The position numbers were made by a program, and so were the translations under genes. Positions 2,605 to 25,028 of a DNA stretch of 64,000 nt are shown piece by piece. The first letter of the stretch is position 1, and each line of letters starts with the position of its first letter. Location of the stretch: positions 682,001-746,000 of the forward strand of contig NZ_PCQA01000001.1 of assembly GCF_002979915.1 (NCBI RefSeq), given 5' to 3'. The DNA comes from Arthrobacter sp. MYb213. GTDB taxonomy: Bacteria; Actinomycetota; Actinomycetes; Actinomycetales; Micrococcaceae. The notes beneath the pieces were generated by a model. It worked only from the letters and a program-made list of their open reading frames with translations. It ran no database searches and was not told the origin of the DNA.

Positions 2605-2606
2605 CT
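2585..2606 (-). terminator. Intrinsic terminator overlapping the stop of the 2605-3243 gene
   Basis: On the minus strand AGCTTGA (2606-2600), a four-base loop and TCGAGCT (2595-2589) form a 7-bp stem with one G-T pair. The T-run follows at 2589-2585. The hairpin begins inside the TAG stop codon, so it ends the SH3/GGCT cassette transcript immediately after translation. Confidence 0.6.
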
Positions 2607-3243
2607 AGTAACCCCATGTCCAACCGCCGGTCTTTTCTGGGTCATACACAATTTGCCCTGAGCTGTAGGGCGCATCAAGCATCAGCATGCCGCGGACCTC
2701 ATCGCCGGCCCCTACCGCGATATCTATCGCATTATCTACCTCGCAAGAATAAGAAGCAACCGTGTCCAACTGATAATTTGGCTTTCGGTTTTCACCAGCA
2801 GAGACACCGAAAGTCGAGGCATCCAGTGGCATCAGAGCAATTTCTTCGTCCACTGCTTTGGCGGCCGAGGCCGCGAGGCTGGCGCTGATGTCAACCAAGA
2901 GGAATCTTCCATTCTCCGGTTTGATCTTGTCCCCAAAGCCACGCAAGGTGCACGAGTCCAGAACCTTGACACTGTGCACGGTGATTTCAAATGAAGGTTT
3001 TTTCTGACCGTCCACGGTCAGTTTGCCTGCCTCGCCCAGTGACTTAATCACCTGGGATTGGGCATCGACATAAACTCTTTCTCCGGATTCAGCATCAATT
3101 TTTGCGACGTCGGCCAGCTGGCTTTTGGTCGTCTTCGTGGTGCTCTCTGCCTGGGCTTGCAGGGAGTTGGTCAGCGCCAACCCACCAGCGCCAAGCGTGA
3201 ATGCAAGTACCGTGGCGCCTGTAAGCAATTTGGTCTTTTTCAT
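2605..3243 (-). CDS. Exported DUF4352-like small protein, copy 1
   Basis: 212 residues from ATG 3243, chosen over an upstream in-frame codon because AGGTGAGGAA lies just before it and the upstream reading would overlap the preceding gene. A signal peptide or N-terminal anchor covers residues 1-32 (KK start, hydrophobic core, LQAQAES). The mature part carries a beta-rich domain with the conserved pieces SCTLRGFG, LLVDISASLAASA, YSCEV and a C-terminal DPEKTGGWTWGY. Two cysteines (SCTL, YSCEV) could form a disulfide. The architecture is like DUF4352 / telomeric-repeat-binding-like lipoprotein domains, but there is no lipobox. It lies 14 bp downstream of the SH3/GGCT gene, so the two are co-transcribed. 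It is a close paralogue of the 7709-8356 gene. Function unknown; probably an extracytoplasmic partner of the SH3/GGCT protein. Confidence 0.85.
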   Translation of the reverse strand: MKKTKLLTGATVLAFTLGAGGLALTNSLQAQAESTTKTTKSQLADVAKIDAESGERVYVDAQSQVIKSLGEAGKLTVDGQKKPSFEITVHSVKVLDSCTLRGFGDKIKPENGRFLLVDISASLAASAAKAVDEEIALMPLDASTFGVSAGENRKPNYQLDTVASYSCEVDNAIDIAVGAGDEVRGMLMLDAPYSSGQIVYDPEKTGGWTWGY

Positions 3244-3257
3244 TGTGGGTTCCTCAC

Positions 3258-5027
3258 CTAAGAGCGCTTCAGGAAGTCGCCGGAAACTATGTAACGACCA
3301 GATCTTTTGACCACTTTCTCCGAGAAGGGTGTGGTCTTGTAGGTCCATGACTGCGACCCGTCGGTCATCCTCACCTTTTGACGGGTGTACATGACTCGTC
3401 CCTGATATTTGAGCTGACTTTCATACCGGTCCAACTTTTTCAGCATGGATGGCCCAGCTTGATCTGAATACTGGAATTGTTCAGTCGCCACGCTCCGCGA
3501 GCCATTGGTGAGAAATGTCCAGTTACGATTCCACAGTTGGTAAAGAGATGTTTTGGATATGCGCTGGTTCATTTCCTTTTGTTGAAATCCGCCCATCACG
3601 TTGTAGGCCGATTGTCCCGTGCGTAAGGTTCCGTAGACCGCAACCGAATGCGGCCCGAAGATCCGAAGGTTGTCTTTTTCCTTGACATAGCCGGACTTAG
3701 ATCCAGACTTTATTTTGACCCAGCCTCCGTCCGCTTTAGCTTGAACGGTGACTTTGATTCCCTTTTTTACGCTCCCTGCCCACCCGGCCTTGGCAGACGG
3801 TTGCTTGAGCATGGTCAGGTTTCTGGTAGCGAAGCGGCCGTAGTCGGTCACGTTGACTGTGGGCGGGATGAGCCCTTCTGGTTTTGTCCGGTTGGTGACA
3901 TCGGTCCACACCCATTTTCCGTTCACCCGGATTTCGTCACGACGGTTTTTCGAATCCCACGTTGCCCATTGCACTTTGGCCCCGGCCTTGATGGTTCCAA
4001 CCTTCTTCGCACCCGACTTACTGGCTTGGTCGTAGAGGTTACCGTTTTTCTGCGCAAATCGGTACTCGGTTTTAGGCGCCTTCCGATTGGTTGAGTTGGC
4101 CCAGACCCAACGCCCGTTCAATAGGACTTCGTCCCGACGATTTGCCGAATCCCACGTTCCCCAGCGGACTTTTGTCCCCCGGCGAATAGTGCCGGCTTGT
4201 TTTGCCTTTTTCTTCTCTGCCGAGTTATATACCCCGCCAGTGTGCTGAGCGTAGCGATATTGGCTGCTAACACTTTTGCGGTTGGTGGTATTCGCCCAAA
4301 CCCAGGAACCGTTGACTAGAATTTCATCCCGACGGTTCGCGGAGTCCCAGCGGCGATATTCGTAACGCTCACCGTGGTGGATACGACCAACTTCCCGGGA
4401 CTTACTGGCATCGAAATGCGAATAGATGGGGCCGCTCTTTTGCACATAGCGATAGGACTTCGCTGGTTGCTGAGTAGCTAGCTGATTGGTCTTAACCCAG
4501 CCATGGTAATAGCCGGTCTTGATATGTGCTGCGCTTCCACTGATTTCTAAGAGTTGGACTTGTGTGCGAAGGTTGACCGCACCAATACGACGGCTCAGTG
4601 ATGAGCTGGAGTACATGGACGCGTAGCCACGCATAAATCTCTTGGACTCGTCCTTGGTGTAAGTTCGCGTTCTCAGGTATTCAGTGGCAGACCAGCCAGT
4701 CTTGGATCCCCATTTGAGTTGGCTCCAGTTACCTTGTTTGGTTCCGGTCGGCTTCACCAGGGTCCCCTTGGGCATCACGCCAAGCGATGAGGCATTCGAT
4801 TTGGGGCTTTGACGTAGCTGAAGATTCACCGTAGTCGTGGTTTCGGTGACCTTCTTCAGGTACTTCGACGGTGGTGCATCTTCTGCCCCGTACCCAGTCT
4901 TTCGAACCGCATGCAGGGCCGCAGGTTCGACCGCGTGCCCCAACGGCATTATTGCGACAGGCGCTACCAAAGCAAGAAAACCCACGGTAGCAATAATCCG
5001 TTGACGAAGAGTTACTCGCGTGCGCAT
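3258..5027 (-). CDS. Secreted SH3-repeat protein with gamma-glutamylcyclotransferase-like C-terminal domain, copy 1
   Basis: 589 residues from ATG 5027; GGAGA sits 9 bases upstream, whereas the longer TTG reading has no site. Residues 1-34 are a signal peptide. A bacterial SH3-like domain (about 55-118; NLQLRQSP, GTLVKPTG, GWSATEYL) and a second diverged one (to about 185) follow. Three tandem 62-65-residue repeats come next (about 190-383), each with YRYAQ...G.I..G...W..WDSANRRDE....NG.WVW. Another SH3-like domain spans 390-452. Residues 460-589 are a GGCT/AIG2-like fold: YGTLRTG (465-471), TEQFQY (515-520, the Glu being the likely catalytic acid) and LDRYE (532-536). It should act outside the membrane on gamma-glutamyl or similar amide groups, with the SH3 repeats binding the wall. 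Substrate unknown. Paralogue of the 8404-10002 gene, with one repeat more. Confidence 0.88.
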   Translation of the reverse strand: MRTRVTLRQRIIATVGFLALVAPVAIMPLGHAVEPAALHAVRKTGYGAEDAPPSKYLKKVTETTTTVNLQLRQSPKSNASSLGVMPKGTLVKPTGTKQGNWSQLKWGSKTGWSATEYLRTRTYTKDESKRFMRGYASMYSSSSLSRRIGAVNLRTQVQLLEISGSAAHIKTGYYHGWVKTNQLATQQPAKSYRYVQKSGPIYSHFDASKSREVGRIHHGERYEYRRWDSANRRDEILVNGSWVWANTTNRKSVSSQYRYAQHTGGVYNSAEKKKAKQAGTIRRGTKVRWGTWDSANRRDEVLLNGRWVWANSTNRKAPKTEYRFAQKNGNLYDQASKSGAKKVGTIKAGAKVQWATWDSKNRRDEIRVNGKWVWTDVTNRTKPEGLIPPTVNVTDYGRFATRNLTMLKQPSAKAGWAGSVKKGIKVTVQAKADGGWVKIKSGSKSGYVKEKDNLRIFGPHSVAVYGTLRTGQSAYNVMGGFQQKEMNQRISKTSLYQLWNRNWTFLTNGSRSVATEQFQYSDQAGPSMLKKLDRYESQLKYQGRVMYTRQKVRMTDGSQSWTYKTTPFSEKVVKRSGRYIVSGDFLKRS

Positions 5028-5109
5028 CAGACAGGAATCTCCAGCCAAAATCTATGAGGGAGCCAAAATATTGGCTAGCGATTGCAGACAGAGAACCGCC
5101 ATAAAATTG

Positions 5110-5138
5110 AGCATAGATAGTTACGCAGTGACCGGCAA
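5110..5138 (-). promoter_or_regulatory. Sigma-70-type promoter of the first SH3/GGCT cassette
   Basis: Minus strand -35 TTGCCG (5138-5133), exactly 17-bp spacer, -10 TATGCT (5115-5110). A start near 5103 gives a leader of about 76 bases before the ATG at 5027. The second cassette has the same arrangement at 10092-10120. Confidence 0.6.
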
Positions 5139-5224
5139 GCTTTTTATCAATTATTTATATTTTGTTCATTTTTGCACCATAAATTAATTAGTCTTCGGTA
5201 AGGACTCCGTGTACTGACCGGGAT

Positions 5225-7363
5225 TTACGATGAAGCAAATAGCTTGCTGTCATCCAGTGCTTCTTTGAGTCGGCTGTCTAACGGCTTGGCTAGGTCACGG
5301 GACATAGTGCTTGAAATGTGCGAGTGGTCCCAATATGCCACCACCCCACCGATCACGCCGTAACAAGTGTCTTCACGGCAGAATTTGTCATTCATACTGA
5401 CCGAGACGATTTTAGGATCATCTAGGGCTTTGACAGCATCGAACTGTGGATCCAGAGGAATCCATTCCTCTGCCGGGCCACTGCACTTTGACAGTTCCTG
5501 CTCATGTTCGGCAACGCAGTCCGGAAGATTATCCATGGTGCTTCCGGGGAACGGGGTGTCCTTGATGACCGCTACTTGAGCACCAGTATTTTTCCAGTCA
5601 CTCAGGGTCTTCTCAAACGCTTGTTGCGCCGGTGCTTCGGATGCGGCAAAGCCCTTGCCTTCAATTGCTAAGGACTGGCGACTGGAAGAGATCACCAAAT
5701 CATAATCATTCTTATCGATCTGCTCGGTAGTCCAATCCGAGTATTCAGCGCAGGCGTCGACAGAGGCCTTCTCGTCATAGGCCTGGCGTTCACCCATCAC
5801 CGCACAACGGCTGATCAAATAGGTGTCCAGTTTCCAACCGCGATCCTCGGCGATTGCTTTCACCGCTGGCACCCACTGACCGGCGTGCGAGTTACCCACC
5901 ATCGCAACTTTGACCTTTCCATTGTCTTTGCCGTAGCTGCAGACCGGACGCTTTGCGTAGTTGTCACCTTGCTCTGAAAAACAGTCATCCGCGTAAACAC
6001 CTGGTTTGTCGTCTTTGGCCACGATAGGTGCCGGGGCTAGCTGTTTGTAGCCCTCTGGGATTCCCTGTTCTTCAACACAACGGTCCGAGAGCCCATTGGA
6101 GCCGAAGCAGTCCGTTCCAACTTGAGCATTAACGCGTTTGACCGAAGCAGTCACATCCTTTGACTCCTCCATGATGTTCCCACTCATAGTGTAGAAAGCA
6201 CCGGCAGCCAGCGCTAAGGTGGCAGAGCCAGCAAGCAAGAATCTAGGGGCAGTCAAAAGCTTTGAGACCTCAATGAATTTACGGAAACGGACCTCAACTA
6301 ATTTTTGAGTCAGTACCGAGAGAACCAAGGTCAGTGCCAATGCTCCAATTTGCGCAGTTACCCCGAATTCGGCGACCGTATAAGGGGCCAGAATGAGAAT
6401 CGGCCAGTGCCACAGGTAGATTGCGTAAGAATTGTCGCCTAAGAAGCGCATCACGCGGTTTTCAAGCAAGATTCCCGGTGAGTACTTGTGAGTGGAGTGC
6501 GAGAGGAGTATCAACGCGGTACCCAAGACCGGGACCAAGGCAATGTATCCGGGGAACGGCATTTCACCAACAAACACCAACGCACTGAAAATGAGCGCGG
6601 CTAACCCGATCCAGGCTCCTGCCAGACTCGTTAGATCTTTCTTCGCCGCATAGGCACGTTGCCCCAACGCAGCCACCAAGGCACCCGCTGCGAATTCCCA
6701 CGCACGGGTGAAGGCGGAGAAGTAGGCGGCTCCAGCATCGGTGGCCGTGGCGTAGATGGAGAACCCTAAGGACAAGGCGAAGATTGCACCCATCCCGATG
6801 AGGGCTGCGTTGCGACGCTTCCAACCAAAACGTATCGCCGCAAACAGTAATGCACCGATGAGAATCGGCCAGATAAGGTAAAACTGTTCTTCCACCGATA
6901 GTGACCAAAAGTGTTGGAAAGGACTTGGCGCATCTGCTTCGGCCAGATAATCAACTTTGGAAGTTGAGAGGTACCAGTTCTGGAAGTAGAAAGTGGCGGC
7001 AATGGCTTGGAAACCCCAGTCTTGCCACAAGGTGATGGGTGCCAGTAACCAGACTCCGAGGAGACCGGCCAGAATGACTAAGAAGGACGCTGGAAGTAAT
7101 CGTTTAACACGGCGCATCCAAAACTGCGCCACGTCTCGAATGTTCTGTGGTGGACGCTTGAGCAGGTGTGTGGTGATCAGGAATCCCGAGATCACAAAAA
7201 AGACGTCAACACCGATAAAGCCACCGGGCAATGCCTTGGGCCAGAAATGGTAAATCACCACTACGCCTACGGCAATAGCACGTAATCCCTGAATGTCGCC
7301 ACGAAAAACCGTCGGCTTGGATTTACGCGCGGTGGTGCCAGTTTCGGCCTGCTGCAAGCTCAC
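5225..7363 (-). CDS. OatA-like membrane O-acyltransferase (acyltransferase 3 plus SGNH domain)
   Basis: 712 residues from GTG 7363, preceded by AAAGGA 11 bases upstream; a GTG at 7399 adds 12 residues but lacks a site. The N-terminal half (to about 390) is an acyltransferase 3 domain with many membrane segments. It carries the family motifs RGDIQGLRAIAV, YHFWP, GGFIGVDVFFVISGFLIT and FQHFWSLSVEEQFYLIWP. The C-terminal extracytoplasmic part (from about 430) is SGNH-like: block I reads VGNSHAGQW rather than the usual GDSHA, and the closing YWDHSHIS supplies Asp and His. It contains many cysteines. Such proteins move acetyl groups across the membrane onto peptidoglycan or a surface glycan. The gene sits alone between the two SH3/GGCT cassettes on the same strand; its exact acceptor cannot be told. 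Confidence 0.9.
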   Translation of the reverse strand: MSLQQAETGTTARKSKPTVFRGDIQGLRAIAVGVVVIYHFWPKALPGGFIGVDVFFVISGFLITTHLLKRPPQNIRDVAQFWMRRVKRLLPASFLVILAGLLGVWLLAPITLWQDWGFQAIAATFYFQNWYLSTSKVDYLAEADAPSPFQHFWSLSVEEQFYLIWPILIGALLFAAIRFGWKRRNAALIGMGAIFALSLGFSIYATATDAGAAYFSAFTRAWEFAAGALVAALGQRAYAAKKDLTSLAGAWIGLAALIFSALVFVGEMPFPGYIALVPVLGTALILLSHSTHKYSPGILLENRVMRFLGDNSYAIYLWHWPILILAPYTVAEFGVTAQIGALALTLVLSVLTQKLVEVRFRKFIEVSKLLTAPRFLLAGSATLALAAGAFYTMSGNIMEESKDVTASVKRVNAQVGTDCFGSNGLSDRCVEEQGIPEGYKQLAPAPIVAKDDKPGVYADDCFSEQGDNYAKRPVCSYGKDNGKVKVAMVGNSHAGQWVPAVKAIAEDRGWKLDTYLISRCAVMGERQAYDEKASVDACAEYSDWTTEQIDKNDYDLVISSSRQSLAIEGKGFAASEAPAQQAFEKTLSDWKNTGAQVAVIKDTPFPGSTMDNLPDCVAEHEQELSKCSGPAEEWIPLDPQFDAVKALDDPKIVSVSMNDKFCREDTCYGVIGGVVAYWDHSHISSTMSRDLAKPLDSRLKEALDDSKLFASS

Positions 7364-7708
7364 GTGTGGCGGGATCCTTTGTCCGGGGAAAGATATCACG
7401 AGACAAGAGCAACGTTGCCGGTGCGGCTAGTTACCACTTGCCAACATAGGTAAAGCCTCGCGGTTAACGAGGCTCTACTTCATGTCTAGTGATTCAATCT
7501 GAACAATAACTGAAAACTCCCACAACATTTCCAGTATGGACAACAGGTCGGTCCGCTTCTCAAGTGGTCCGAACGTCGAATTATCCGTGAGTCTTCGCGG
7601 ATAACTCCCAAAAATGACTGGTTGAACTGTGATTGAATTCTCAGTGTTTTAGGATGCGCGCCTGCTGTCCCGTACGCCGAGGCGCTGCTTGAGGAGTGAG
7701 AATTTCAG
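7364..7708. other. Intergenic region between cassette 2 and the acyltransferase gene
   Basis: No gene seen. It holds a terminator-like hairpin at 7454-7474 (listed separately) and a second 7-bp inverted repeat TTATCCG/CGGATAA (7581-7587 and 7598-7604) without a T-run. The acyltransferase promoter should lie in the first 90 bases, but I see no confident -35/-10 pair. Confidence 0.5.
7454..7474 (-). terminator. Terminator-like hairpin downstream of cassette 2
   Basis: AGCCTCG (7454-7460) and CGAGGCT (7468-7474) form a perfect 7-bp stem around a 7-base loop. On the minus strand it is followed by TTTA. It would separate the 7709-8356 gene from the acyltransferase gene. Confidence 0.5.
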
Positions 7709-8356
7709 CTAATAAGACCACGTCCAACCGCCAGTCTTTTCGGGATCATAGACAACTTGGCCCGAATCGAAGGGCGAATCGAGCATGAGTTGTCCGTGCA
7801 CGGTATCGCCGGCACCTACGGCGATATCCAGTGCGTTCGGCACCTCGCAAGAGTAGGAGGCAATAGTATCCAGTTGGTAACTAACATTCTTGTTCTCCCC
7901 CGCGGATACTCCGAAGGCCGAAGCATCTAAAGGCATCAACGCAACATCAGCATCCACGGCATCCGCTGCCGAAGCGGCCAGGGTAGCGCTGACGTCTAAC
8001 AATAAGAATGACCCGTTCTCAGGTTTGATAGTTTCCCCGAAACCACGCAGTGTGCAGCTTTTGAGTACCTGCACTTTGTTAATAGTGATTTTGAATGAAG
8101 GTTCTTTTTGACCTTCTACGGTGAGTTTCCCTGCCTCGCCAAGTTCTTTCACCACTTGTGATTCCGAGTCTACGTATACTTTCATTCCGGTTTGCGGGTC
8201 GGCCGCAGCCACACCGGCTACCTGGCCCTCCTGAGTTTCTACAGCTTGGGCCGCAGGGGTTTCGTTGTGTTGATTTACCAGCACCGCAGAGGTGACGGTG
8301 CCCGCGATTACTATGACGGCGGTAGCCGTTCCGATCAGTCGCTTTTTCTGGTTCAT
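7709..8356 (-). CDS. Exported DUF4352-like small protein, copy 2
   Basis: 215 residues, ATG 8356, with AAGGGGAAGGACC just upstream. An N-terminal signal/anchor (KKR then hydrophobic, residues 1-28) is followed by a linker and the same beta-rich domain as the 2605-3243 product. Shared stretches include KVLKSCTLRGFG-type, LLLDVSATLAASA, ALMPLDASAFGVSAGEN and DPEKTGGWTW. Both cysteines are conserved. The N-terminal 60 residues differ strongly between the copies, while the last 150 are nearly superimposable. It lies 47 bp after the second SH3/GGCT gene and is probably co-transcribed. Function unknown. Confidence 0.85.
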   Translation of the reverse strand: MNQKKRLIGTATAVIVIAGTVTSAVLVNQHNETPAAQAVETQEGQVAGVAAADPQTGMKVYVDSESQVVKELGEAGKLTVEGQKEPSFKITINKVQVLKSCTLRGFGETIKPENGSFLLLDVSATLAASAADAVDADVALMPLDASAFGVSAGENKNVSYQLDTIASYSCEVPNALDIAVGAGDTVHGQLMLDSPFDSGQVVYDPEKTGGWTWSY

Positions 8357-8403
8357 GGTGGGGTCCTTCCCCTTTGGTCTCCTCGAAGACGATTTGAAGA
8401 GAG

Positions 8404-10002
8404 TTAAGAACGTTGGAGGAAATCACCGGAGGAAATATACCGGCCGGAATTCTTCACGACTTTCTCAGATTCGCTGGTGGTCTTATATGTCCACGACTCA
8501 GACCCATCAGTCATGCGGACTTTTTGCCTGGTGTACATAGGCTTACCGTTGTATTTCAACTGGCTTTCGTAGACATCAAGCTTTTGAAGCATGTTTGATC
8601 CACGAGTATCCGAATATTGGAACTGTTCGTTGACCACGGTTCCCCCACCGTTAGTGAGGAAAGTCCAGTTAGGATTCCACAACTGATACAAAGAGGAACT
8701 AGCAAAACGTTGATTCATAATCTTCTGCTGGAAACCTGCCATCAGGTTGTAGGCTGACTGTCCAGTGCGCAGGGTGCCGTATACGGCTACTGAATAGGGG
8801 CCATCACGGCGTAAATCGTAGGACTCATTGACGTAGCCGGTGTAATTGCCGTACTTAACTCGGACCCATCCACCATCAGCCTTACCGGTGATGGTGACCT
8901 TGTCTCCCTTTTTCAAGGTGACCAGAATACTGTCATATGGATCGCTGCGCGGGGTTTTACGTAAGGGAGCATTCTTTGCAGCAAAACGGCCATAAGGAGA
9001 TACCGAGATGGTCTCGGGAATCGTTCCAGCGGGCTTAGTACGGTCAGTAACACCGGTCCAAACCCAACGACCGTTTAGCAAAATCTCGTCACGGCGATTT
9101 GCCGAACTCCACGCACCCCAGCGCACCTTAGTACCACGGGTAATGGTGCCAACTTTAGTATCACTGGATTTGTCTGCACGGTTGTAGGTGCTACCGGTTT
9201 CTTGGGCATAACGGTATTCCCGGGCAACATATGGCTTTTGGGTTACGGGGCTCCACACCCACCGGCCGCCAACCAGAATCTCATCGCGTCGATTGGCCGA
9301 ATCCCAGCGCCGGTATTCATACTTTTCCGAGTGGTGGATGCGTCCAACAACTTTGGAATTGGACTTGTCCTGGTGGGAGTAGACTGAACTGCTCTTGGCC
9401 ACATAACGGTAAGCCTTAGCGGGGCGCGCCTTAGTGACCTTGGAGGAAGGCACCCAGCCGTAGTAATACGCGGTCTTGATCTGCGACCACGAGCCACTGA
9501 CATTGAGCAGGCTCACCTGGGTGCGGAAGTTCACGCCGCCCACCGCGCGATTAAAGTTGGGTTCGGCGAAGATCTGAGTAAAAGAGGTCATGTACCTGAC
9601 CGATAAGTCTTTGGTGTAAGTCCGCGTTTCCAGAAATTGACTCGCTGCCCATCCAGTTTTGGAACCCCAGGTGAGTTGGCTCCAACTGCCACTCTTCTTT
9701 CCAGTCAGCTTCACCACGGTTCCCTTGGTCATGACGCCATAGGATGTGGAACTGGTGGAAGCCTTAGCGCGAAGATTGAGATTTGCGGTGGTTCGCGTCT
9801 CGGTCACTTTGGTGATGTATTTGGATGGCGGTGCGTTCTCGTCGTCGTAGGTGCCGGTGGCGACCAGTAGGTTTTTGCCTTCCACTGCTGCGTGGGCCAG
9901 CGGCTGCGTGATGACCGGAGCGCTAAGGCCGAATGTCAGTAAAGCGCATAAGGTCACCCACGCGGTCACAGAATTGTAGGATTTTGGTTTTGAAGGTTCC
10001 AT
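8404..10002 (-). CDS. Secreted SH3-repeat protein with gamma-glutamylcyclotransferase-like C-terminal domain, copy 2
   Basis: 532 residues from ATG 10002, where AAAGGAA lies 8 bases upstream; the longer reading (10029) is less likely. Signal peptide residues 1-38 (LAHAA end). Order: SH3-like domain (about 65-130), a second diverged one, two 63-residue repeats with WDSANRRDEI and GGRWVW or NGRWVW (about 196-325), an SH3-like domain (about 335-395), then the GGCT/AIG2-like domain with YGTLRTG (408-414), NEQFQY and LDVYE. The domain and its putative catalytic Glu are intact. It has one repeat fewer than copy 1, which accounts for most of the length difference. Probable wall-bound extracellular enzyme, substrate unknown. 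Confidence 0.88.
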   Translation of the reverse strand: MEPSKPKSYNSVTAWVTLCALLTFGLSAPVITQPLAHAAVEGKNLLVATGTYDDENAPPSKYITKVTETRTTANLNLRAKASTSSTSYGVMTKGTVVKLTGKKSGSWSQLTWGSKTGWAASQFLETRTYTKDLSVRYMTSFTQIFAEPNFNRAVGGVNFRTQVSLLNVSGSWSQIKTAYYYGWVPSSKVTKARPAKAYRYVAKSSSVYSHQDKSNSKVVGRIHHSEKYEYRRWDSANRRDEILVGGRWVWSPVTQKPYVAREYRYAQETGSTYNRADKSSDTKVGTITRGTKVRWGAWSSANRRDEILLNGRWVWTGVTDRTKPAGTIPETISVSPYGRFAAKNAPLRKTPRSDPYDSILVTLKKGDKVTITGKADGGWVRVKYGNYTGYVNESYDLRRDGPYSVAVYGTLRTGQSAYNLMAGFQQKIMNQRFASSSLYQLWNPNWTFLTNGGGTVVNEQFQYSDTRGSNMLQKLDVYESQLKYNGKPMYTRQKVRMTDGSESWTYKTTSESEKVVKNSGRYISSGDFLQRS

Positions 10003-10091
10003 GGGATATTCCTTTGATCCCCGCGCCATTGCGGGAGCTCATTTTCTCCGGGCGTCAGCTGCCTGCAAAGTGACCCGGTGTGGAGCCTTTG

Positions 10092-12864: not shown

Positions 12865-12970
12865 CCGTTGGATCTCGTCTCCTTTCGACCACCAACGAGA
12901 CTTTCCTGACTGGCCTTTATATACTGTGAGGAATCACCGATCACACTCGCAATTCTTCACAGGAGATTTT

Positions 12971-15136
12971 ATGCCTGAAAACCGCTTTGCAGGCAGACGC
13001 CTGCTCGCGTTATCGCTCGGGGCCGCGCTGGTCCTGCCGCTGGCTGCAACCGCTCCAGCAGTAGCATCACCCACCAAGGAAACAGCTCCTAGCGTTTCAA
13101 GCTCCGCTACAGCGAGTCCGTCTCCAGCTGAGTCCAGCAAACCGGAAGCACCGCAGACTCCTGAACCAGCGAGCACGCCAAGTGTTGCCAGTTCAGCAGC
13201 AAAGGCTATTGAACAAGGACTAACTCAAAAGACGGATCTCTCGGCCAAGGAAAGAATTTCCTTGGCCGCTTTGGCGCTAGATGCTTTAGACAAAGATTTC
13301 ATTGACGCCACCATGGGCCAAGGCCAAAAGCGCATCGATGAGTCTGGAGATCCAGCTGCTCCGACACTTGCCGAACTTGCTACTCTCGCACAAGAAGTAG
13401 CCACTGACACAGAGCAGAATCTGGATCTTGCAGTACCAGGCTCACTTGAAGATCTCCGCACCTGGCGTCCACCGGGAACTTTGGGCATCGACGTTTCCCA
13501 CCATCAAGGGACCATCGATTGGAAACAGGCTTATAACAACGGTGCACGTTTTGGCTACATCAAGGCCACGCAGTCGTGGCCTACGTCCTTGTTCAAAGAT
13601 TCACAGTTCAACACAAACTACGCCGCTTCGGGTTCTGCGGGCGTAATTCGCGGTGCCTACCACTTTGCAATGCCCGCGCACTCCAGTGGAGCTACCCAAG
13701 CTAAGGAATTCCTCGCTAATGGTGGCGGGTGGACCGCGGATGGCAAGACCATGCCACCACTGCTAGATATCGAGTGGAATCCATATAAAGCGAAAGATTA
13801 CCCTCAGGGTAAAGGCGATATCTGCTACGGTCTGAGCCCGGCACAGATGGTGACCTGGATCAAGAGCTTCGGCAATACCATCAAGGCCAGCACCGGCCGC
13901 TTGCCAATGATCTATACCGCTCAGTCATGGTGGGATCAGTGCACCGGTGATTCCGAGGCCTTCAAGTACTGGCCGCTGCATGTTTCGGTCTTCCCTACTT
14001 CGGATACCTCGACCAAGAATCCGCGCGAGCTTCCCGAAGGCTGGAAGACCTTTAACGTCTGGCAGTACGCGTCAAACTCAAACCTTATTGGTAATGCAAA
14101 GAATGTCGATGCCAATGTTTGGAACGGCAATCTGACGTCGCTGAAGGATTTCGCCAAGAATACCCGCAGCACCCCATACAAGATGGTGACCTCTTATTTG
14201 GGCGACATGGACGTCTGGCCAACCCGGTTAGATCCCGTACGCCTATATGGAAACCGCTGGTTTGATACTCCTGTAGCAATTTCCAAGCGCACATTTCCTT
14301 CCACTGCTTCCACCGTGGTGATCACCTCGGGTGAACGCTTCCCCGACGCTCTGGCAGGTTCCCCTCTCGCGGCTTTGAAGAACGCACCGCTGTTACTGAC
14401 GCAGAAGAACGAACTACCTGCTTCGGTGGCAACAGAACTCAAACGCCTCAAACCCAAGAACATCATTATTCTCGGTGGCCCCATTGCCATCAGTGAATCC
14501 ACCGTCAAGACGATTAAAACCTACGGCCCGGTGACCAGGGTATGGGGTAATGATCTCTACGACACCAGCGCATTGATTTCTAAGAAATGGCAAACCTCTA
14601 ATCAGGTATTTTTGGCGACCGGTGAACGTTTTGAAGACGCGATGTCTTTGGCAGCAGTGGCTTCCGGGCGTGAAGCTCCGATGTTGCTGACTAAAAAGGC
14701 CTCCGTGCCAGCAGCAACTATTCGTGAGTTGAAGCGTTTGAAGCCAACGCGGGTTTATATGGCCGGTGGCCCACTGACTATCTCAGCTAATACTGAACGC
14801 CAGGTACGTGCCGCCGTTCCCAATGCAAAGATCATCCGCTTTGAAGGTGCTACTCGTTACGACACCAGCGCCCTGATTGCAAAGACTTTCTGGACCAAGG
14901 GTTCGCAACGTCAGTTCGTTGCTACCGCAGATGATTTCCGTGATGGTCTGACCGGCGCTGTAATCGCTTCTTACAACGATGCACCATTGTTGCTGACGAA
15001 GAAGGATTGCATGCCTTCCTCCGTGGCCGGTGCCATGCGTTCCATGAAGGGCTGGACCAATATCCTGCTCGGTGGACCGAAGGTCTTGGATGAGACCGTG
15101 GCCTATAAAACGAATGGCCAGCAGAATATCTGCTGA
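12971..15136 (+). CDS. Secreted GH25 lysozyme with three cell-wall-binding repeats
   Basis: 721 residues from ATG 12971, chosen because CAGGAG lies 7 bases upstream and a clean signal peptide follows (residues 1-34, AVA end). A Ser/Pro/Thr-rich segment (36-78) and a helical linker lead to the GH25 domain (about 169-395). It begins GIDVSHHQGTIDW and has the catalytic acidic pair LLDIEWN (D266, E268) and WQYAS. Three CW_binding_2 repeats (PF04122) follow at about 423-512, 518-608 and 617-710, each with the DxxxGERFPDAL..A / PLLLT / ILGGP pattern. It should hydrolyse the glycan strand (N-acetylmuramidase) while tethered to the wall, acting as an autolysin or an enzyme against competitors. Same repeat family as in the 1-958 gene. 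Confidence 0.95.
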   Translation: MPENRFAGRRLLALSLGAALVLPLAATAPAVASPTKETAPSVSSSATASPSPAESSKPEAPQTPEPASTPSVASSAAKAIEQGLTQKTDLSAKERISLAALALDALDKDFIDATMGQGQKRIDESGDPAAPTLAELATLAQEVATDTEQNLDLAVPGSLEDLRTWRPPGTLGIDVSHHQGTIDWKQAYNNGARFGYIKATQSWPTSLFKDSQFNTNYAASGSAGVIRGAYHFAMPAHSSGATQAKEFLANGGGWTADGKTMPPLLDIEWNPYKAKDYPQGKGDICYGLSPAQMVTWIKSFGNTIKASTGRLPMIYTAQSWWDQCTGDSEAFKYWPLHVSVFPTSDTSTKNPRELPEGWKTFNVWQYASNSNLIGNAKNVDANVWNGNLTSLKDFAKNTRSTPYKMVTSYLGDMDVWPTRLDPVRLYGNRWFDTPVAISKRTFPSTASTVVITSGERFPDALAGSPLAALKNAPLLLTQKNELPASVATELKRLKPKNIIILGGPIAISESTVKTIKTYGPVTRVWGNDLYDTSALISKKWQTSNQVFLATGERFEDAMSLAAVASGREAPMLLTKKASVPAATIRELKRLKPTRVYMAGGPLTISANTERQVRAAVPNAKIIRFEGATRYDTSALIAKTFWTKGSQRQFVATADDFRDGLTGAVIASYNDAPLLLTKKDCMPSSVAGAMRSMKGWTNILLGGPKVLDETVAYKTNGQQNIC

Positions 15137-19600: not shown

Positions 19601-20258
19601 GTTGTACGCTCTGCGCACGACGGGCAATCTTTGCTTGTCGCCCTAAGGGTGCTAATTGCCTGCGTACTTCCGAGCTCAAGTCTTCAAGACGGTCTAGATT
19701 GCCTTGCATACCTTGAAGCTTACGTAGTGTCTTTTCTTTACGCCGGCGGTGTTTGAGTACGCCGGCGGCTTCTTCGATAAACCCACGGCGGTCTTCAGCG
19801 GTGGCATGTAAAATTTTGTCGAGCTGGCCTTGACCGACAATGACATGCATTTCTCGGCCCAGTCCGGAGTCTGAGAGTAATTCCTGGATATCAAGCAGTC
19901 TGCACGACGAGCCATTGATAGCGTATTCGGATCCACCGGCACGGAACAATGTTCTAGAGATTGTCACTTCGGCATAGTCGATAGGAAGCTTTCCATCAGC
20001 ATTATCGATGGTCAACGAAACATGGGCGCGGCCTAGCGGAGCACGGCCAGAGGTACCAGCAAAAATGACATCTTCCATTTTGCCGCCACGAAGGGTCTTA
20101 GCTCCCTGCTCCCCCATAACCCAGGCGAGCGCATCCACGACATTAGATTTGCCTGAACCGTTAGGTCCTACAACGGCAGTGACGCCCGGCTCAAACTCAA
20201 ACGTGGTCGCTGAAGCAAAAGACTTGAATCCGCGAACGGTGAGAGTCTTCAGATGCAC
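16686..20258 (-). CDS. smc: Chromosome segregation protein SMC
   Basis: 1190 residues, a full-length SMC. Residues 31-38 hold Walker A (GPNGSGKS), with VTAVV before it and LRGGKMEDVIFAG after. Two long coiled coils (about 165-490 and 680-1010) surround a hinge (about 510-670; ILGRLGELISVSAGYEQAIS). Near the C-terminus come LLSGGERSLTA (ABC signature) and FYVMDEVEAALDD (Walker B). It works with ScpA/ScpB in chromosome compaction. In related genomes mutM and rnc are directly upstream; here the 20.4-26.1 kb island separates them. Start ATG 20258. Confidence 0.98.
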   Translation of the reverse strand: MHLKTLTVRGFKSFASATTFEFEPGVTAVVGPNGSGKSNVVDALAWVMGEQGAKTLRGGKMEDVIFAGTSGRAPLGRAHVSLTIDNADGKLPIDYAEVTISRTLFRAGGSEYAINGSSCRLLDIQELLSDSGLGREMHVIVGQGQLDKILHATAEDRRGFIEEAAGVLKHRRRKEKTLRKLQGMQGNLDRLEDLSSEVRRQLAPLGRQAKIARRAQSVQLDVRDAKARLLADDLVSLNNKLAQDIDDETKIQARQQETTQRLEHVKTHVSKLSEEIELLTPRLSLINETWVSLTTQGERFRSLAALARERGKLLEGNQTHFDSSRDPDRLEAQAERLTEELAELEESVEDRHEILAEAIEAKEHAEEQARAEQQRMAAMLRAAADRREGMSRLASQVASARSRVDVTHAEIARLQDGLRSFDADLEADARSHAELSAELEQKLATESTLNEEFERAESDYVLLSKAQSETSARERELSVQISGLNARLDALQLNTKRDDQSEQIISQAPEAILGRLGELISVSAGYEQAISAILRESAEALVARDQASALQLLKSLANDHSTHASFVHASVESSRGLTNSVVGISAREVVSADPMLNALLDVIFANHYVVQHLDEASELLEAHPKAQITTLDGATVSALRSSVGDSAGASLIAQQALVEQTAAELTTACNELSECEAQLAERAPLLSQAQLAFEDAQGALAESDATIDEISTYLAKLGHKLRTARADKEALAQRIQTTGEKLEIEQESLEEITERMELASEDQDEDSIDDAGRAALADAASAARQRELEARLALRSSEERVSGLRSRVEGLRRTAAAERSHREVAARRAEDRRAQAVNAQRVEQAAERVLRFIEISVDIAAKERETLTGKQGELDRLLSSQRTQAEQLTAELARLSDAVHRDEMARAELRLRIETLETKSLEDLGFTPDHLIAHFGPDQLIPEDVDPEDKWAELHQNVDDEGNLIGTKPFDRAEQEKRLKKAERDLAALGKVNPLALEEFAALEERHKFLSGQLEDLKKSRNDLQQIIKDVDAHVERVFTEAYNDTAVQFKRIFERLFPGGEGQLVLTDPENMLTTGIEVEARPAGKRIKRLSLLSGGERSLTAVALLVAIFKARPSPFYVMDEVEAALDDVNLGRLITIFEELREASQLIVITHQKKTMEVADALYGVTMRGDGVSTVISQKLARPEPV

Positions 20259-20408
20259 GGCGTAAAATTCCTATGTTTGGTCTAGTGTCGATATGGTTGA
20301 CTAGGGAAAGCTATCCAATTCCTGCTCGTAATTCTAGCGAAGCGATGCCACGATTGGGTGATTCCCGCTCGCAATCACGAGAACGAATAATGAGGGATTG
20401 GTCTAACC

Positions 20409-21221
20409 ATGAGTGTTTTAGCCCAGATTGAACAATGGCCGGTAGATAACGCGGTATCTGTAGTCATCAATGGGGACGGCGCGATAGTGGCCGAGCATGG
20501 AGATACCACGCGTGTTTACCCTCTGGCCTCAGTTACCAAACTGTTGAGCACGTACGCCTTCCTTATCGCTCTTGAAGAAGAAGCAATCACGTTAGAGGAT
20601 CCAGCGGGTCCTGAAGGTTCAACGGTCCACCATCTACTTGCGCATACGGCCGGATATGACTTTGACTCGACAACTATCCGTTTCGCGGTAGGAACTAAAC
20701 GAGGATATTCAAACACCGGTTTTGAAGTTCTAGCCGAACATCTTGAAAAAGAAACCGGAATGAGCTTCTCGGAGTATGCGCAAGAAGCCGTATTCACTCC
20801 TCTAGGTATGAGTAACACGGAGATTGCCGGTAGCTGCGCCAAAGACGGGCGATCAAACGCTTCGGACCTTGCGTTGTTTGCTGCTGAACTACTCAACCCC
20901 ACGCTAATAGCGGCAGAAACCATGCATGATGCCACCCGCGTGCATTTCGAAAATCTTGCGGGGATCTTACCTGGTTATGGGCGCCAAAACCCGAATGATT
21001 GGGGTCTAGGATTTGAGATCAGGTCAACAAAAAATCCTCATTGGACTGGTCAGAACCACCCATCAAGCACCTTTGGACACTTCGGACAGTCCGGCACCTT
21101 CCTATGGGTTGACCCGGAACATCGTCTTGCCTGCGTGACGCTCACTGATCGAAAATTCAGTAAATGGTCTTTAGCTATCTGGCCGGATTACAACAAATCA
21201 ATTTTAACAGACTATTCCTAG
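20409..21221 (+). CDS. Serine beta-lactamase-like hydrolase
   Basis: 270 residues. The penicillin-recognising fold is complete but short: SVTK (SxxK nucleophile, residues 42-45), YSNTG (YxN motif) and HFGQSG near the C-terminus in place of the KTG motif, as in class C-like esterases and EstB-type proteins. There is no signal peptide, so it is probably cytoplasmic. It could be an esterase or D-amino-acid-processing enzyme; beta-lactam resistance is not implied. It is the first plus-strand gene of the island between smc and mutM, divergent from smc. No good ribosome site precedes ATG 20409. Confidence 0.85.
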   Translation: MSVLAQIEQWPVDNAVSVVINGDGAIVAEHGDTTRVYPLASVTKLLSTYAFLIALEEEAITLEDPAGPEGSTVHHLLAHTAGYDFDSTTIRFAVGTKRGYSNTGFEVLAEHLEKETGMSFSEYAQEAVFTPLGMSNTEIAGSCAKDGRSNASDLALFAAELLNPTLIAAETMHDATRVHFENLAGILPGYGRQNPNDWGLGFEIRSTKNPHWTGQNHPSSTFGHFGQSGTFLWVDPEHRLACVTLTDRKFSKWSLAIWPDYNKSILTDYS

Positions 21222-21309
21222 CGCGAATTACATTAGTCAACATTTAGTATTATATTTAATCACAATACAATTATTCTATAACGGAATAACATAAGTCAGG
21301 GAAAACTCC

Positions 21310-22254
21310 ATGAAACCTAGCAATTATCGCCAGTGGAAAGTCCTACATTATTGGTGGGACAACATTGAGGACTTCTCAAATCGTTGGAAAGGTCTATCAG
21401 GTATTCATTCCGTAATTTTCCCGGGATCGCCCCGTCCTATAGATATCTACGTGAATGAGCATGTGCATAATGCCGAGCAAAAAGCGATTACGACGTTTTT
21501 CAGTGGAGCGATCTCAAGCCGCGGAAATAAACAGGGCCCCTTCTTTTCCGGTATTAAATTGAGTTCCCAGAATAATTTACCCATGATCAGCATCGCGGAT
21601 TCGAGTTTGGATGATGATCCAGAACTGAGTCTGGCATGGTACACCGGCGGAGCTCATGATAACTTCGAAGCTAATCTCACCACTATGCTCAACGCGATAG
21701 CGGACTCATTGAAAACTGAGTTAATTCTAGTTGGCGGTTCCGGTGGTGGATATGCTTCATTGAACTACGCTAAACGCTTGGCAAAGCCGGCGACTGTTGT
21801 AGTTTGGAATCCACAAACGGATATTTATAGCTACTACGAGCGTTTCGTCAAAGCATACTTGAAAAGTCGATTTAATTTTGCGCATTCAACGCTTGCCCAA
21901 GATAACTGGAAGCAGTATTGCAGACCACGAACGGATAAATTAGTAAGCACAAACGTTCTCGTGCCTGAGACAATCAATTCGATCCGGCGCTTGGTTTACT
22001 TACAGAATAAAACCGACTGGCATCTTCAAAAACATCTATCACCACTGTGGTCCAAAATATCAAAGCATCCCATTGAGCCAGGGGTGCATGCATATACCGA
22101 TCAGCATATTTTCGCGGTGCAAGATTTTGCAGAAGGTCACAACCCTCCAGACTCAAACCTAATAGCCTCGATTTTGCTTCAACTTTCAAATACAGACATG
22201 AAAGCAATCGATGTTCAACTCGATCTGGCACCAAATTCTGGTTCACAATACTAA
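21310..22254 (+). CDS. Alpha/beta-hydrolase-like protein of a surface-polymer island, paralogue A
   Basis: 314 residues, no signal peptide or membrane segment. I see an alpha/beta-hydrolase elbow, ILVGGSGGGYASL (GxSxGG, Ser about 143), and a late EGHNPP that could provide the catalytic His. The product resembles the 25029-26060 product in layout: N-terminal FFSG / FHAA-type segment, elbow in the middle, WNPQ or MNPR after the elbow, VYLQN or FYLQN, GH near the end. Related proteins occur in capsule and accessory secretion (Asp2-like) clusters, but I cannot name the reaction. CAGGGAA precedes ATG 21310. The asparagine-synthetase-like gene follows 73 bp later, probably in the same transcript. 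Confidence 0.7.
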   Translation: MKPSNYRQWKVLHYWWDNIEDFSNRWKGLSGIHSVIFPGSPRPIDIYVNEHVHNAEQKAITTFFSGAISSRGNKQGPFFSGIKLSSQNNLPMISIADSSLDDDPELSLAWYTGGAHDNFEANLTTMLNAIADSLKTELILVGGSGGGYASLNYAKRLAKPATVVVWNPQTDIYSYYERFVKAYLKSRFNFAHSTLAQDNWKQYCRPRTDKLVSTNVLVPETINSIRRLVYLQNKTDWHLQKHLSPLWSKISKHPIEPGVHAYTDQHIFAVQDFAEGHNPPDSNLIASILLQLSNTDMKAIDVQLDLAPNSGSQY

Positions 22255-22327
22255 CTTATTCGCAAAGTTGCCCTCCACAAACGAATTAGGATTTCACCGT
22301 TTTTATCCATAACTAAAGGATCGTCGA

Positions 22328-24148
22328 ATGACCAATACCATGTTAGTAGCACCCGTAATAGTTAGCACTCCAGCGCGCAAAAACGACCTCGAATCCGCAG
22401 CTAAAGTAATGAGCGATGAGCCGCCAGTCAGACGGGGGAATAGGGAATTCTGGCTCGACGGAAGCGTCGTAATTTCAGGAATTGCTGCACTTAGAACAGC
22501 AGATCTCGAAATCTGTATTCCGCGTTCCGCCGCAGAGTGGAAAATTCAGCAAATTGCAGATTGGTGGGCAATAAATGCTAAAAATCCTGGTGCACTTTAT
22601 ATCCACGACAATAGTGAAGGGTGGAGCGCCTGTTTACCTGATCCTTTGGGTGGTGCGCTTGCCTTTACATTACAACGAGATGGGCACGTTTTTGTAAGCA
22701 CAAGTACAACCGCGCTCGTCACCAAAGCAGCAGACCACGGAATCAAAGTCTCAAAAGACCCATTGTTTCAAATTGAACGGTTGCTACTGGGAAACGGTGG
22801 CCTCGTAAATAACAGTTTTGAGAATGTTCATAGCATTGAACCCTTTCAGTATGTATACATTTCTGATAACCAAGCGCAAAACCGTGCATATAAGTCAACG
22901 CATAGTCTAATGGCGCTCACAAACTTCGAATTGTTTCAGATGCTTCGAAACGAAGTGCTAAGTACCATTTCGGCATTAGTCAATTCTAACTCCGATCAAG
23001 TGATCTCACATTTAACCGGTGGATTCGATTCGCGTATCGTATTGTCTGCGATATTGCATCTCGGTGTTGAAGATCGCACACTACTTTTCTGTTCCGGCCC
23101 GGAGGGCTCGACAGATCGTGTCATTGCCGATGGCTTATCTCGACAGTTCGGCTTACGTCGAACGTTGGGCGCAGGCCTGACCCCTGCGCCCACGACCAAC
23201 ATGTCAGAGCGATTAATGGGACCACTATTTGCAAGTGGCGGTATCACCAATACTGGACCGTTAGGCAGAGAAGTTTCAGCGAATGTTGTAGCAATGGGGG
23301 GTGGATACGGTGAAGTGCTACGTACTTTTTATGGCAATCGCGAAATAACCTCAGAAGGTAGCCTAAGTGACGAACTAATACTTAAGCGTTATCTTCCTTT
23401 CGATTCGCAAGCGAATAAGCATATTTCTCCAGCGGCGATTAGCACTCTCGGTTCTAAGCTAATCCAAAACTTTCGACGCATAAACACGATTTACGACGAC
23501 CCCGAGTTTCTCGGGGATGCATACTATACTCACACCAGAAATCGCTACCATATTGGTCAATCCTCGCTTTTGTGGAGCAGAATTGGTTCTAGGTTCGATC
23601 CACTATATTCGCTCGCCGGTTTTGAACTCTCTCGTCGCGCTACCCAAAGTACAAGGGCAGCGAACGAAATTGGACATGATCTCATGGAGTCTTTTTCATC
23701 CAAACTTCTAGAATTTCCATTTGACTACGAGCGCTTCAGTGACGAACTTCTAAAACGGCGCAAAAAACCGGTTCAAGCATCTTGGCCAAGCACCTCCAGA
23801 AAAATTTCGTTTGAAGAATCTATTCAGCCGAAGACCGTAAGTGAAAGCAAATTTCTGAACGCTCTTTCCGGTCTCGATATCCCACAACCACAGCACACAA
23901 CTGCGCAACGTCAAGCCATGACGGCTCAGGCCAACAAGCAAGGTGTAAATTTTTGGCAAATCATGTATAAAACCACAGGTCAAGAGCTTCTTAGAAAGGC
24001 ATTCGAGACTTCGCCATCAAGTCCAGTGTATGAATACATTGATCCAAATTATATTAAGTCAATTGCAAGCAAGCCGAGCCTCAACAAGAGAGAGCTTAGA
24101 GACCTCTACTCACTTGGAAGTATTATTACCTGGTGCAGTCTCGGGTAG
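22328..24148 (+). CDS. Asparagine-synthetase-like ATP pyrophosphatase protein lacking the glutaminase cysteine
   Basis: 606 residues; AAAGGA precedes ATG 22328. The C-terminal two thirds have the Asn synthase fold: the PP-loop reads LTGGFDS (229-235, usually SGGxDS), followed by GPEGSTDRVIADGLSRQFGL and a GGGYGE motif. The N-terminal region is like the class II glutamine amidotransferase of AsnB (PLGGALAF..., FVSTSTTAL), but the protein does not begin Met-Cys, so the glutaminase nucleophile is absent. It is therefore unlikely to make asparagine from glutamine. Homologous proteins in polymer or peptide clusters form amide bonds after adenylating a carboxylate. Here it may amidate or cross-link a surface or small-molecule substrate together with the flanking hydrolases. 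Confidence 0.75.
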   Translation: MTNTMLVAPVIVSTPARKNDLESAAKVMSDEPPVRRGNREFWLDGSVVISGIAALRTADLEICIPRSAAEWKIQQIADWWAINAKNPGALYIHDNSEGWSACLPDPLGGALAFTLQRDGHVFVSTSTTALVTKAADHGIKVSKDPLFQIERLLLGNGGLVNNSFENVHSIEPFQYVYISDNQAQNRAYKSTHSLMALTNFELFQMLRNEVLSTISALVNSNSDQVISHLTGGFDSRIVLSAILHLGVEDRTLLFCSGPEGSTDRVIADGLSRQFGLRRTLGAGLTPAPTTNMSERLMGPLFASGGITNTGPLGREVSANVVAMGGGYGEVLRTFYGNREITSEGSLSDELILKRYLPFDSQANKHISPAAISTLGSKLIQNFRRINTIYDDPEFLGDAYYTHTRNRYHIGQSSLLWSRIGSRFDPLYSLAGFELSRRATQSTRAANEIGHDLMESFSSKLLEFPFDYERFSDELLKRRKKPVQASWPSTSRKISFEESIQPKTVSESKFLNALSGLDIPQPQHTTAQRQAMTAQANKQGVNFWQIMYKTTGQELLRKAFETSPSSPVYEYIDPNYIKSIASKPSLNKRELRDLYSLGSIITWCSLG

Positions 24149-24169
24149 TCGTTCATAATGGATTCTAAA

Positions 24170-24227
24170 AATTGATGTGTCTCGTATAATAAACAAAAAT
24201 TAGTTTATTAGTCTTGACACATCAATT
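24170..24227. terminator. Long nested inverted repeat between convergent genes
   Basis: AATTGATGTGTC (24170-24181) and GACACATCAATT (24216-24227) form a perfect 12-bp outer stem. Inside it, TAATAAAC (24187-24194) pairs with GTTTATTA (24203-24210). Only two weak internal loops interrupt the structure. It sits between the plus-strand gene ending at 24148 and the minus-strand gene ending at 24236. On the minus strand TTTT follows soon after. It is probably a bidirectional terminator, unusual in being AT-rich. Confidence 0.55.
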
Positions 24228-24235
24228 ATAGATAC

Positions 24236-24964
24236 TTAACTTTTATTCAATCTTTGTTGTATCTCTTTCCCTATCCATTCATACGCCCCCGCGGAGTAAT
24301 GGTATTGAGCAATGCCCCACTGATGCTGACGAGTTGTAACGGCCAGCCTTTCAGGCATATCAATAACTTCAAGGCCTGTCCTGCTGAGAATTTGAGATAG
24401 GTTTGCTATTTTTAGCGACATATCTCTCGCGGAAATACCGCGAAACACGGGAACCTCGGTGCCTTCCACAGAAGTAGCAGCCCATGGCGTATTAATGACT
24501 AGAGTTTTCTCAGAAAGACCGAGATTTTCTAAATAATTGTAGAATTTTAAAGCGGCGTTTTCCCAGAAAGAAGTATGCCTTTCTGTTCCAATCTCAATTC
24601 TTCCCGGCTTCGGACTCACCGCATTCAGCCATTCTGAACGTGAAAGCTCTACAGAACTCGTCACGAAAGAGTTATCGGGTAATTTGTGAACACCTAGTCT
24701 TTCATCAGTAAGGTCCACTAGTAACAAATCAATGTCGTCAGCGTGTTCTCTGAGTGATTTTAATAAATTAGAATCCAAATCACCGGTCAGCATCCGATTT
24801 TGAAAATTGGAATCTAAAGGTGGGCCTTTGGTCAAGGATGAAGGCCGATTCATTGCGCTTATGAGAGACTGACGGGCTACGTATCCGAGCAGGTTGCAAC
24901 TATCCGGGAGATACTGAAATGTGTCACGGCTTACGCAGCTACCGTAAATGAAGAGATTAGGCAT
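24236..24964 (-). CDS. DUF6270-type protein (SGNH-like)
   Basis: 242 residues. The start IYGSCVSRDTF is the signature I associate with DUF6270 proteins, which are found in polysaccharide and teichoic-acid regions. Further visible pieces are LLLVDLTDERLG, TLVINTPWAA and a late QYHYSAGAYEWIG (a His in the last 30 residues). A Ser in GSC near the N-terminus plus the late His suggests an SGNH-hydrolase-like fold, but that is inference. There is no signal peptide. It is transcribed divergently from the 25029 gene and converges on the asparagine-synthetase-like gene. The ATG at 24964 has a TAGTTT box 6 bases upstream and no Shine-Dalgarno, so the mRNA may be leaderless. Confidence 0.7.
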   Translation of the reverse strand: MPNLFIYGSCVSRDTFQYLPDSCNLLGYVARQSLISAMNRPSSLTKGPPLDSNFQNRMLTGDLDSNLLKSLREHADDIDLLLVDLTDERLGVHKLPDNSFVTSSVELSRSEWLNAVSPKPGRIEIGTERHTSFWENAALKFYNYLENLGLSEKTLVINTPWAATSVEGTEVPVFRGISARDMSLKIANLSQILSRTGLEVIDMPERLAVTTRQHQWGIAQYHYSAGAYEWIGKEIQQRLNKS

Positions 24965-25028
24965 ACATCTAAACTACAGCAATCTGGTGCTTCGCATTAG
25001 AGTACCACTGGATGCTAAAATTAACACT

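Follow-up and report, generated by a model that had tools for sequence, protein, structure and literature searches.

Gamma-glutamyl cyclotransferases are known from the cytosol, as enzymes of glutathione and gamma-glutamyl metabolism, and the characterised members of the GGACT family are, to our knowledge, cytosolic too. What, then, would such a domain do at the end of an exported protein with wall-type repeats? We addressed this question at a locus of Arthrobacter sp. MYb213, in a window of 64,000 nucleotides (positions 682001-746000 of contig NZ_PCQA01000001.1; genome of 3.79 Mb) whose host genome we take as belonging to Glutamicibacter (genus g1). The window carries two copies of a two-gene module, each consisting of a large SH3-repeat protein with a C-terminal GGACT domain and a small exported beta protein, here called the partner. 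Computation gave N-termini resembling signal peptides, repeats of the wall-binding type, a GGACT fold in the structure model together with a conserved glutamate, and a strict gene pair. We tentatively read the module, at somewhat less than even odds, as a wall-bound extracellular gamma-glutamyl cyclotransferase with an MPT63-like accessory, acting on the glutamate of peptidoglycan bridges.

Open reading frames (ORFs) and Pfam matches confirmed that the two copies lie on the minus strand with an acyltransferase between them, as the sequence-only reading had proposed. Copy 2 encodes a 541-aa protein at 8404-10029 with PF08239 repeats; the end at 10002 given earlier is an internal ATG of this gene. 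Its GGACT domain occupies 8407-8826, with the YGTLR loop at residue 417 and the predicted catalytic Glu488 at codon 8566-8568. The copy 2 partner, a 215-aa MPT63/DUF4352-like protein with two conserved cysteines, follows after 47 bp at 7709-8356. Copy 1 is placed at 3258-5027 from its ATG, the longest ORF (3258-5048) giving 596 aa from a TTG; its GGACT domain lies at 3261-3680, with the predicted catalytic Glu543 (numbered from the TTG) at codon 3420-3422. The copy 1 partner follows after 14 bp at 2605-3243, assuming the likely ATG at 3243; its longest ORF extends over 2605-3348 (247 aa).

The C-terminal domains scored above the PF06094 cut-off of 22.8 bits in both copies (44.3 bits in copy 1, 40.7 bits in copy 2), and the structure model of the domain has the GGCT/GGACT fold that had been anticipated. 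By profile alignment, its glutamate is retained opposite that of mouse GGACT, which we take to be catalytic. Across 21 domains, with identity to the first falling as low as 24%, Glu87, Asp84, Gly17, Arg20, Tyr98 and Asp135 were invariant; in the YGTL loop the Gly, like the Glu, was present in 21/21, with Tyr, Thr and Leu each present in at least 90% of the domains. The loop adjoining YGTLR was poorly modelled. Structural matches here and below come from VIA-align lists, and matching families absent from such lists may exist.

We next considered where these proteins act. A hydrophobic core of the signal type lies close to the N-terminus in both large proteins; the N-terminus of copy 2 resembles a signal peptide, with AHA-A judged by eye. 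The Pfam scan found SH3_3 repeats in both, and above cut-offs labelled nothing in either copy other than SH3-type and GGACT domains, with no known wall-hydrolase catalytic domain (NlpC/P60, CHAP, amidase or M23). These N-termini and modules support a predicted position outside the membrane on wall-binding modules, as first suggested. A further clue to the target came from a VanY D,D-carboxypeptidase in another genome (G238, locus L067, 5832-7145), in which three RYAQ...NRRD repeats left unlabelled by Pfam are visible by eye and are similar, at 51% identity over query 201-335, to the repeats of the SH3-GGACT proteins. The two kinds of protein share the RYAQ repeats and differ in the catalytic domain, and no partner-cluster gene lies within the 12 kb neighbourhood of this VanY. 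Because a peptidoglycan enzyme carries like repeats, peptidoglycan is supported as the target of the RYAQ repeats.

The partner is less readily classified. No Pfam family was above cut-off in either window partner, and only one of 21 partners matched PF11611, weakly (E 0.03), the window copy matching no family. Its model resembles MPT63 and DUF4352-type surface proteins (1lmi, YjhA, YcdA, YxkC), in keeping with the small, exported, beta-rich protein first described beside each GGACT gene. The partners share this modelled fold and differ in being tied to GGACT genes and in having two conserved cysteines and a GGW(S/T)W tail. PMC10090944 was set aside as the source of the YxkC-DacA entry, since these names are absent from its main text. 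Wider, weaker relatives occur in 69 of 295 family genomes at E 1e-5, and the four inspected were lipoprotein-like and without a GGACT gene. In G127, a genome of the same genus without a GGACT match, a VanY D,D-carboxypeptidase (4030-4950, locus L080) is followed by a lipoprotein-like weak relative (5111-5749), and at L085 (3417-4361 and 4628-5308) a weak relative adjoins an opposite-strand gene for a LysM-NlpC/P60 wall peptidase.

The same two genes recur together across the family. A domain-profile search of the 295 family genomes matched 33 genomes at E 1e-6 or better. We excluded from the pair counts four weak stand-alone GGACT matches of genus g3 (frames of 173-174 aa, E 1.8e-8 to 6.1e-7), whose genomes gave no match in the partner search of the family genomes. 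The remaining 29 genomes carry 33 GGACT domains, and all 33 have a same-strand partner match: 32 downstream, with 14-209 bp between matches, and one upstream, in Micrococcus terreus, whose enzyme carries SLH repeats. In the reverse direction, partner matches at E 1e-15 or better occur in 29 genomes, of which 28 also have the enzyme; in the exception, G051, the partner stands beside the acyltransferase with no enzyme match. With the two genes side by side in 33/33 family cases, their recurrence is beyond chance, and the expectation that the pair would be conserved in other genomes was borne out.

The type extends sparsely into other families of the order. Among 396 order genomes, eight match the profile. 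Two are the window genome and another member of its family; the remaining six come from three other families. All six other-family domains lie in long frames, with a signal-like core in five and, seen by eye, in the sixth (L118). FG-GAP modules were above cut-off in three of these proteins, one of which also has SLH; L118 has an FG-GAP match below cut-off, and no module is labelled in L116 or L120. The partner gene directly follows the domain in three of the six genomes, and L120 had no partner match. At L117, two tandem partner genes (6948-8246 and 7982-8866) follow the SLH-FG-GAP-GGACT protein. In L115, the C-terminal stretch of the GGACT protein aligns with the partner profile, both cysteines included (probability 92, E 7.3e-7), so that by profile comparison a partner-like domain is fused to GGACT in one genome of another family. 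The corresponding stretch of L119 reached only probability 53 (E 1.4e-4), suggestively a second such fusion, and the two stretches combined gave probability 94 (E 1.4e-7). Across the order, these genome comparisons show the pair to be a conserved module of the secreted-type GGACT proteins, which makes the original observation stronger than it was first put.

At greater distance the domain occurs in other settings. Of 25 new matching genomes among 345 class genomes, 24 fall in genus g144 (genomes of 6-11 Mb; probably Streptomyces). None of the 26 loci of this search had a partner match within about 1.5 kb; frames were at most 185 aa in 9/26. A search of 296 phylum genomes added five weak matches. 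A tree built from 56 domains has a branch (98/95) that separates the 30 secreted-type domains from the other 26; several branches are long and details unsure. Short or weak matches (L076 and L146 among them) were left out, and G254 has no row. At three loci labelled stand-alone in the tree (L122, L124, L139) the upstream open frame holds a hydrophobic stretch. The g144 and phage AIG2-like proteins belong to the same domain family as the window type, whereas the bacterial g144 domains sit on the other side of the tree. Mobile or phage origin was rejected: a plasmid search with the large protein gave no match, 17 phage records matched the L115 domain at 27-35% identity, and viral contigs yielded two weak GGACT matches and no partner. 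One phage paper notes an Arthrobacter phage AIG2-like protein together with an amidoligase, and lists the AIG2-like gene of the cluster AL phages Laroye and Salgado with neighbouring-number amidoligase and GTPase-domain genes (PMC5513430).

What bond might a wall-bound cyclotransferase act on? Enzymes of the GGACT/GGCT family can cyclise a gamma-glutamyl residue only when its alpha-amine is free, and in the intact peptidoglycan stem the amine of D-Glu is bonded to L-Ala. The intact gamma-D-Glu stem bond, offered earlier as a possible substrate, is therefore an unlikely target and a poor fit to the known chemistry. For GGCT-type enzymes a classic substrate is gamma-Glu-Ala; for GGACT it is gamma-Glu-epsilon-Lys. 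The wall bridges of Glutamicibacter and Paeniglutamicibacter end in glutamate, the bridge in A4alpha walls of the Glutamicibacter type being Lys-Ala-Glu, and the bridge glutamate of un-crosslinked strands has a free amine. Glutamic acid in the Glutamicibacter interpeptide bridge is also mentioned in passing in one source (PMC10300444). The distribution of the module, present in 15/15 Paeniglutamicibacter and 9/18 Glutamicibacter genomes (four of these nine with broken copies), fits the glutamate-bridge walls of the named genera. Host-made poly-gamma-glutamate found no support as a substrate: CapC (PF14102) was found in 0/18 Glutamicibacter and 0/15 Paeniglutamicibacter genomes, with a positive B. 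subtilis control.

We propose that the SH3 and RYAQ repeats would hold the enzyme on peptidoglycan, where the active-site glutamate would promote cyclisation of a gamma-linked glutamate by attack of the free alpha-amine on the gamma-carbonyl of the same residue. The products would be 5-oxoproline and a shortened amine, with no water, ATP or cofactor needed. In A4alpha peptidoglycan, the most likely substrate would be the glutamate that ends an un-crosslinked Lys-(Ala/Gly)-Glu interpeptide bridge, a reading that requires the bridge glutamate to be gamma-linked. Its removal would end the use of the strand as a normal cross-link acceptor, by analogy with the trimming of donors by D,D-carboxypeptidases, and the probable role of the partner is to bind the GGACT domain or to position it on the wall. 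The fuller proposal, that enzyme and partner edit peptidoglycan in a new way, by self-cyclisation of bridge glutamate rather than by hydrolysis, and so set the number of remaining acceptor strands, is a more doubtful one that we regard as possible.

Several other readings were weighed against bridge trimming. An unlikely one is that of a surface nutrient enzyme scavenging environmental gamma-glutamyl compounds such as glutathione and gamma-glutamyl peptides or amines. Such compounds are substrates of human GGACT and GGCT, the patchy distribution and repeated breakage would suit a niche trait, and Glutamicibacter relatives have an ammonium transporter in the wider surroundings of the locus. Scavenging would, however, need neither the many wall-binding repeats with their SLH alternatives nor a strict partner, and among the loci fetched no transporter cluster constantly accompanies the pair outside Glutamicibacter. 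Somewhat less probable still is that gamma-D-Glu-L-Lys peptides become substrates only once a different wall enzyme has cleaved L-Ala-D-Glu, the secreted enzyme then clearing or recycling turnover fragments. The freed amine would make the chemistry possible, a GH25 muramidase carrying three type 2 cell-wall-binding repeats lies near the module (12926-15136), and the structural neighbours of the last SH3 domain include those of wall enzymes. Gamma-D-Glu stems are nevertheless near-universal, whereas the secreted type is narrow (8/396 order genomes, and none among the class- and phylum-level matches resolved); known family enzymes prefer L-Glu, and no peptidase gene is constantly beside the pair in the loci fetched.

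That the GGACT domain is a non-catalytic, ligand-binding surface domain appears improbable. The structural relative YtfP of E. coli lacks a glutamate at the aligned position, indicating that the fold can exist without it, and the imprecisely modelled loop leaves room for such a reading; the six residues invariant across the 21 divergent domains speak against it. Least probable is a secreted lysin-like antagonist of other bacteria with the partner as immunity or delivery protein: SH3 repeats, a catalytic domain and a small exported neighbour resemble bacteriolysin layouts, but the fusion in L115 (and suggestively L119) is easier to reconcile with an accessory subunit than with an inhibitor, the four inspected weak partner relatives are lipoprotein-like without a GGACT gene, and the proteins scanned contain no Pfam wall-hydrolase or toxin domain, the VanY neighbour apart.

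The acyltransferase between the copies (724 aa, 5225-7399, minus strand) has AT3 (PF01757) and SGNH (PF19040) domains, the make-up of OatA or SucT, and does not reach the NCBIfam SucT equivalog cut-off (295.6 bits against 1275). Its position and make-up agree with the sequence-only reading; it is no part of the conserved pair. It occurs at 10 Glutamicibacter loci and is absent from the cluster at all non-Glutamicibacter loci fetched, and at L068 it persists with the partner where there is no GGACT match. We therefore rejected it as a functional third member and treat it as a genus-level neighbour. Overall, the fold and glutamate, the export and the conserved pair of the earlier interpretation stood, while neither the acyltransferase association nor the gamma-D-Glu stem substrate was supported; we encountered neither a non-GGCT fold, nor a missing glutamate, nor an unconserved pair, the three outcomes it had named as fatal to it.

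The two copies differ considerably, with 48% identity over 480 positions in the large proteins and 61.5% over 213 in the small ones, so the duplication is not recent. In the tree, copy 2 falls together with G095 (100/97), not with copy 1 as its sister. Since remnants of a second module persist in G095 on the far side of its acyltransferase, the duplication may predate the split between G095 and the window genome. Double pairs also occur in G156, G168 and G200. Copies are visibly interrupted in G169, G220, G254, G246 and G219 and partial in G022; with 6/33 copies interrupted or partial, the module is dispensable. The large gene is interrupted at apparently different places (L057, L059, L061, L062, L104), suggesting repeated independent loss.

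Around the module, an FtsY-like gene, recognised from sequence alone, lies upstream of the series copy 2, partner, acyltransferase, copy 1 and partner. Further along the window, GC is lower in 20001-26060, at 0.42-0.47 per 2 kb; this stretch is flanked by genes identified by eye as SMC-like and formamidopyrimidine-DNA-glycosylase-like. Besides a DUF6270 protein it encodes one that resembles alpha/beta-hydrolases and another, of 606 aa, without a Pfam match, and it is perhaps an acquired island.

What is new at this locus is a known kind of enzyme in a new place. Compared with GGACT/AIG2-like PF06094 proteins such as the human enzyme (3jub/3juc), the window-type proteins are predicted to be exported on SH3, SLH or FG-GAP modules, and have a linked partner gene and a C-terminal GDFLKR-type tail; the wall-editing role is a proposal. 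We found no report of a secreted GGACT in the open-licence literature searched, few of the searches being aimed at that point. A secreted, wall-anchored GGACT with a strictly linked partner would bring gamma-glutamyl cyclotransferase chemistry to the bacterial surface. If bridge trimming is correct, it would constitute a step of cross-link control outside the hydrolase and carboxypeptidase families, and would provide a first function for the secreted GGACT clade and its MPT63-like partner family.
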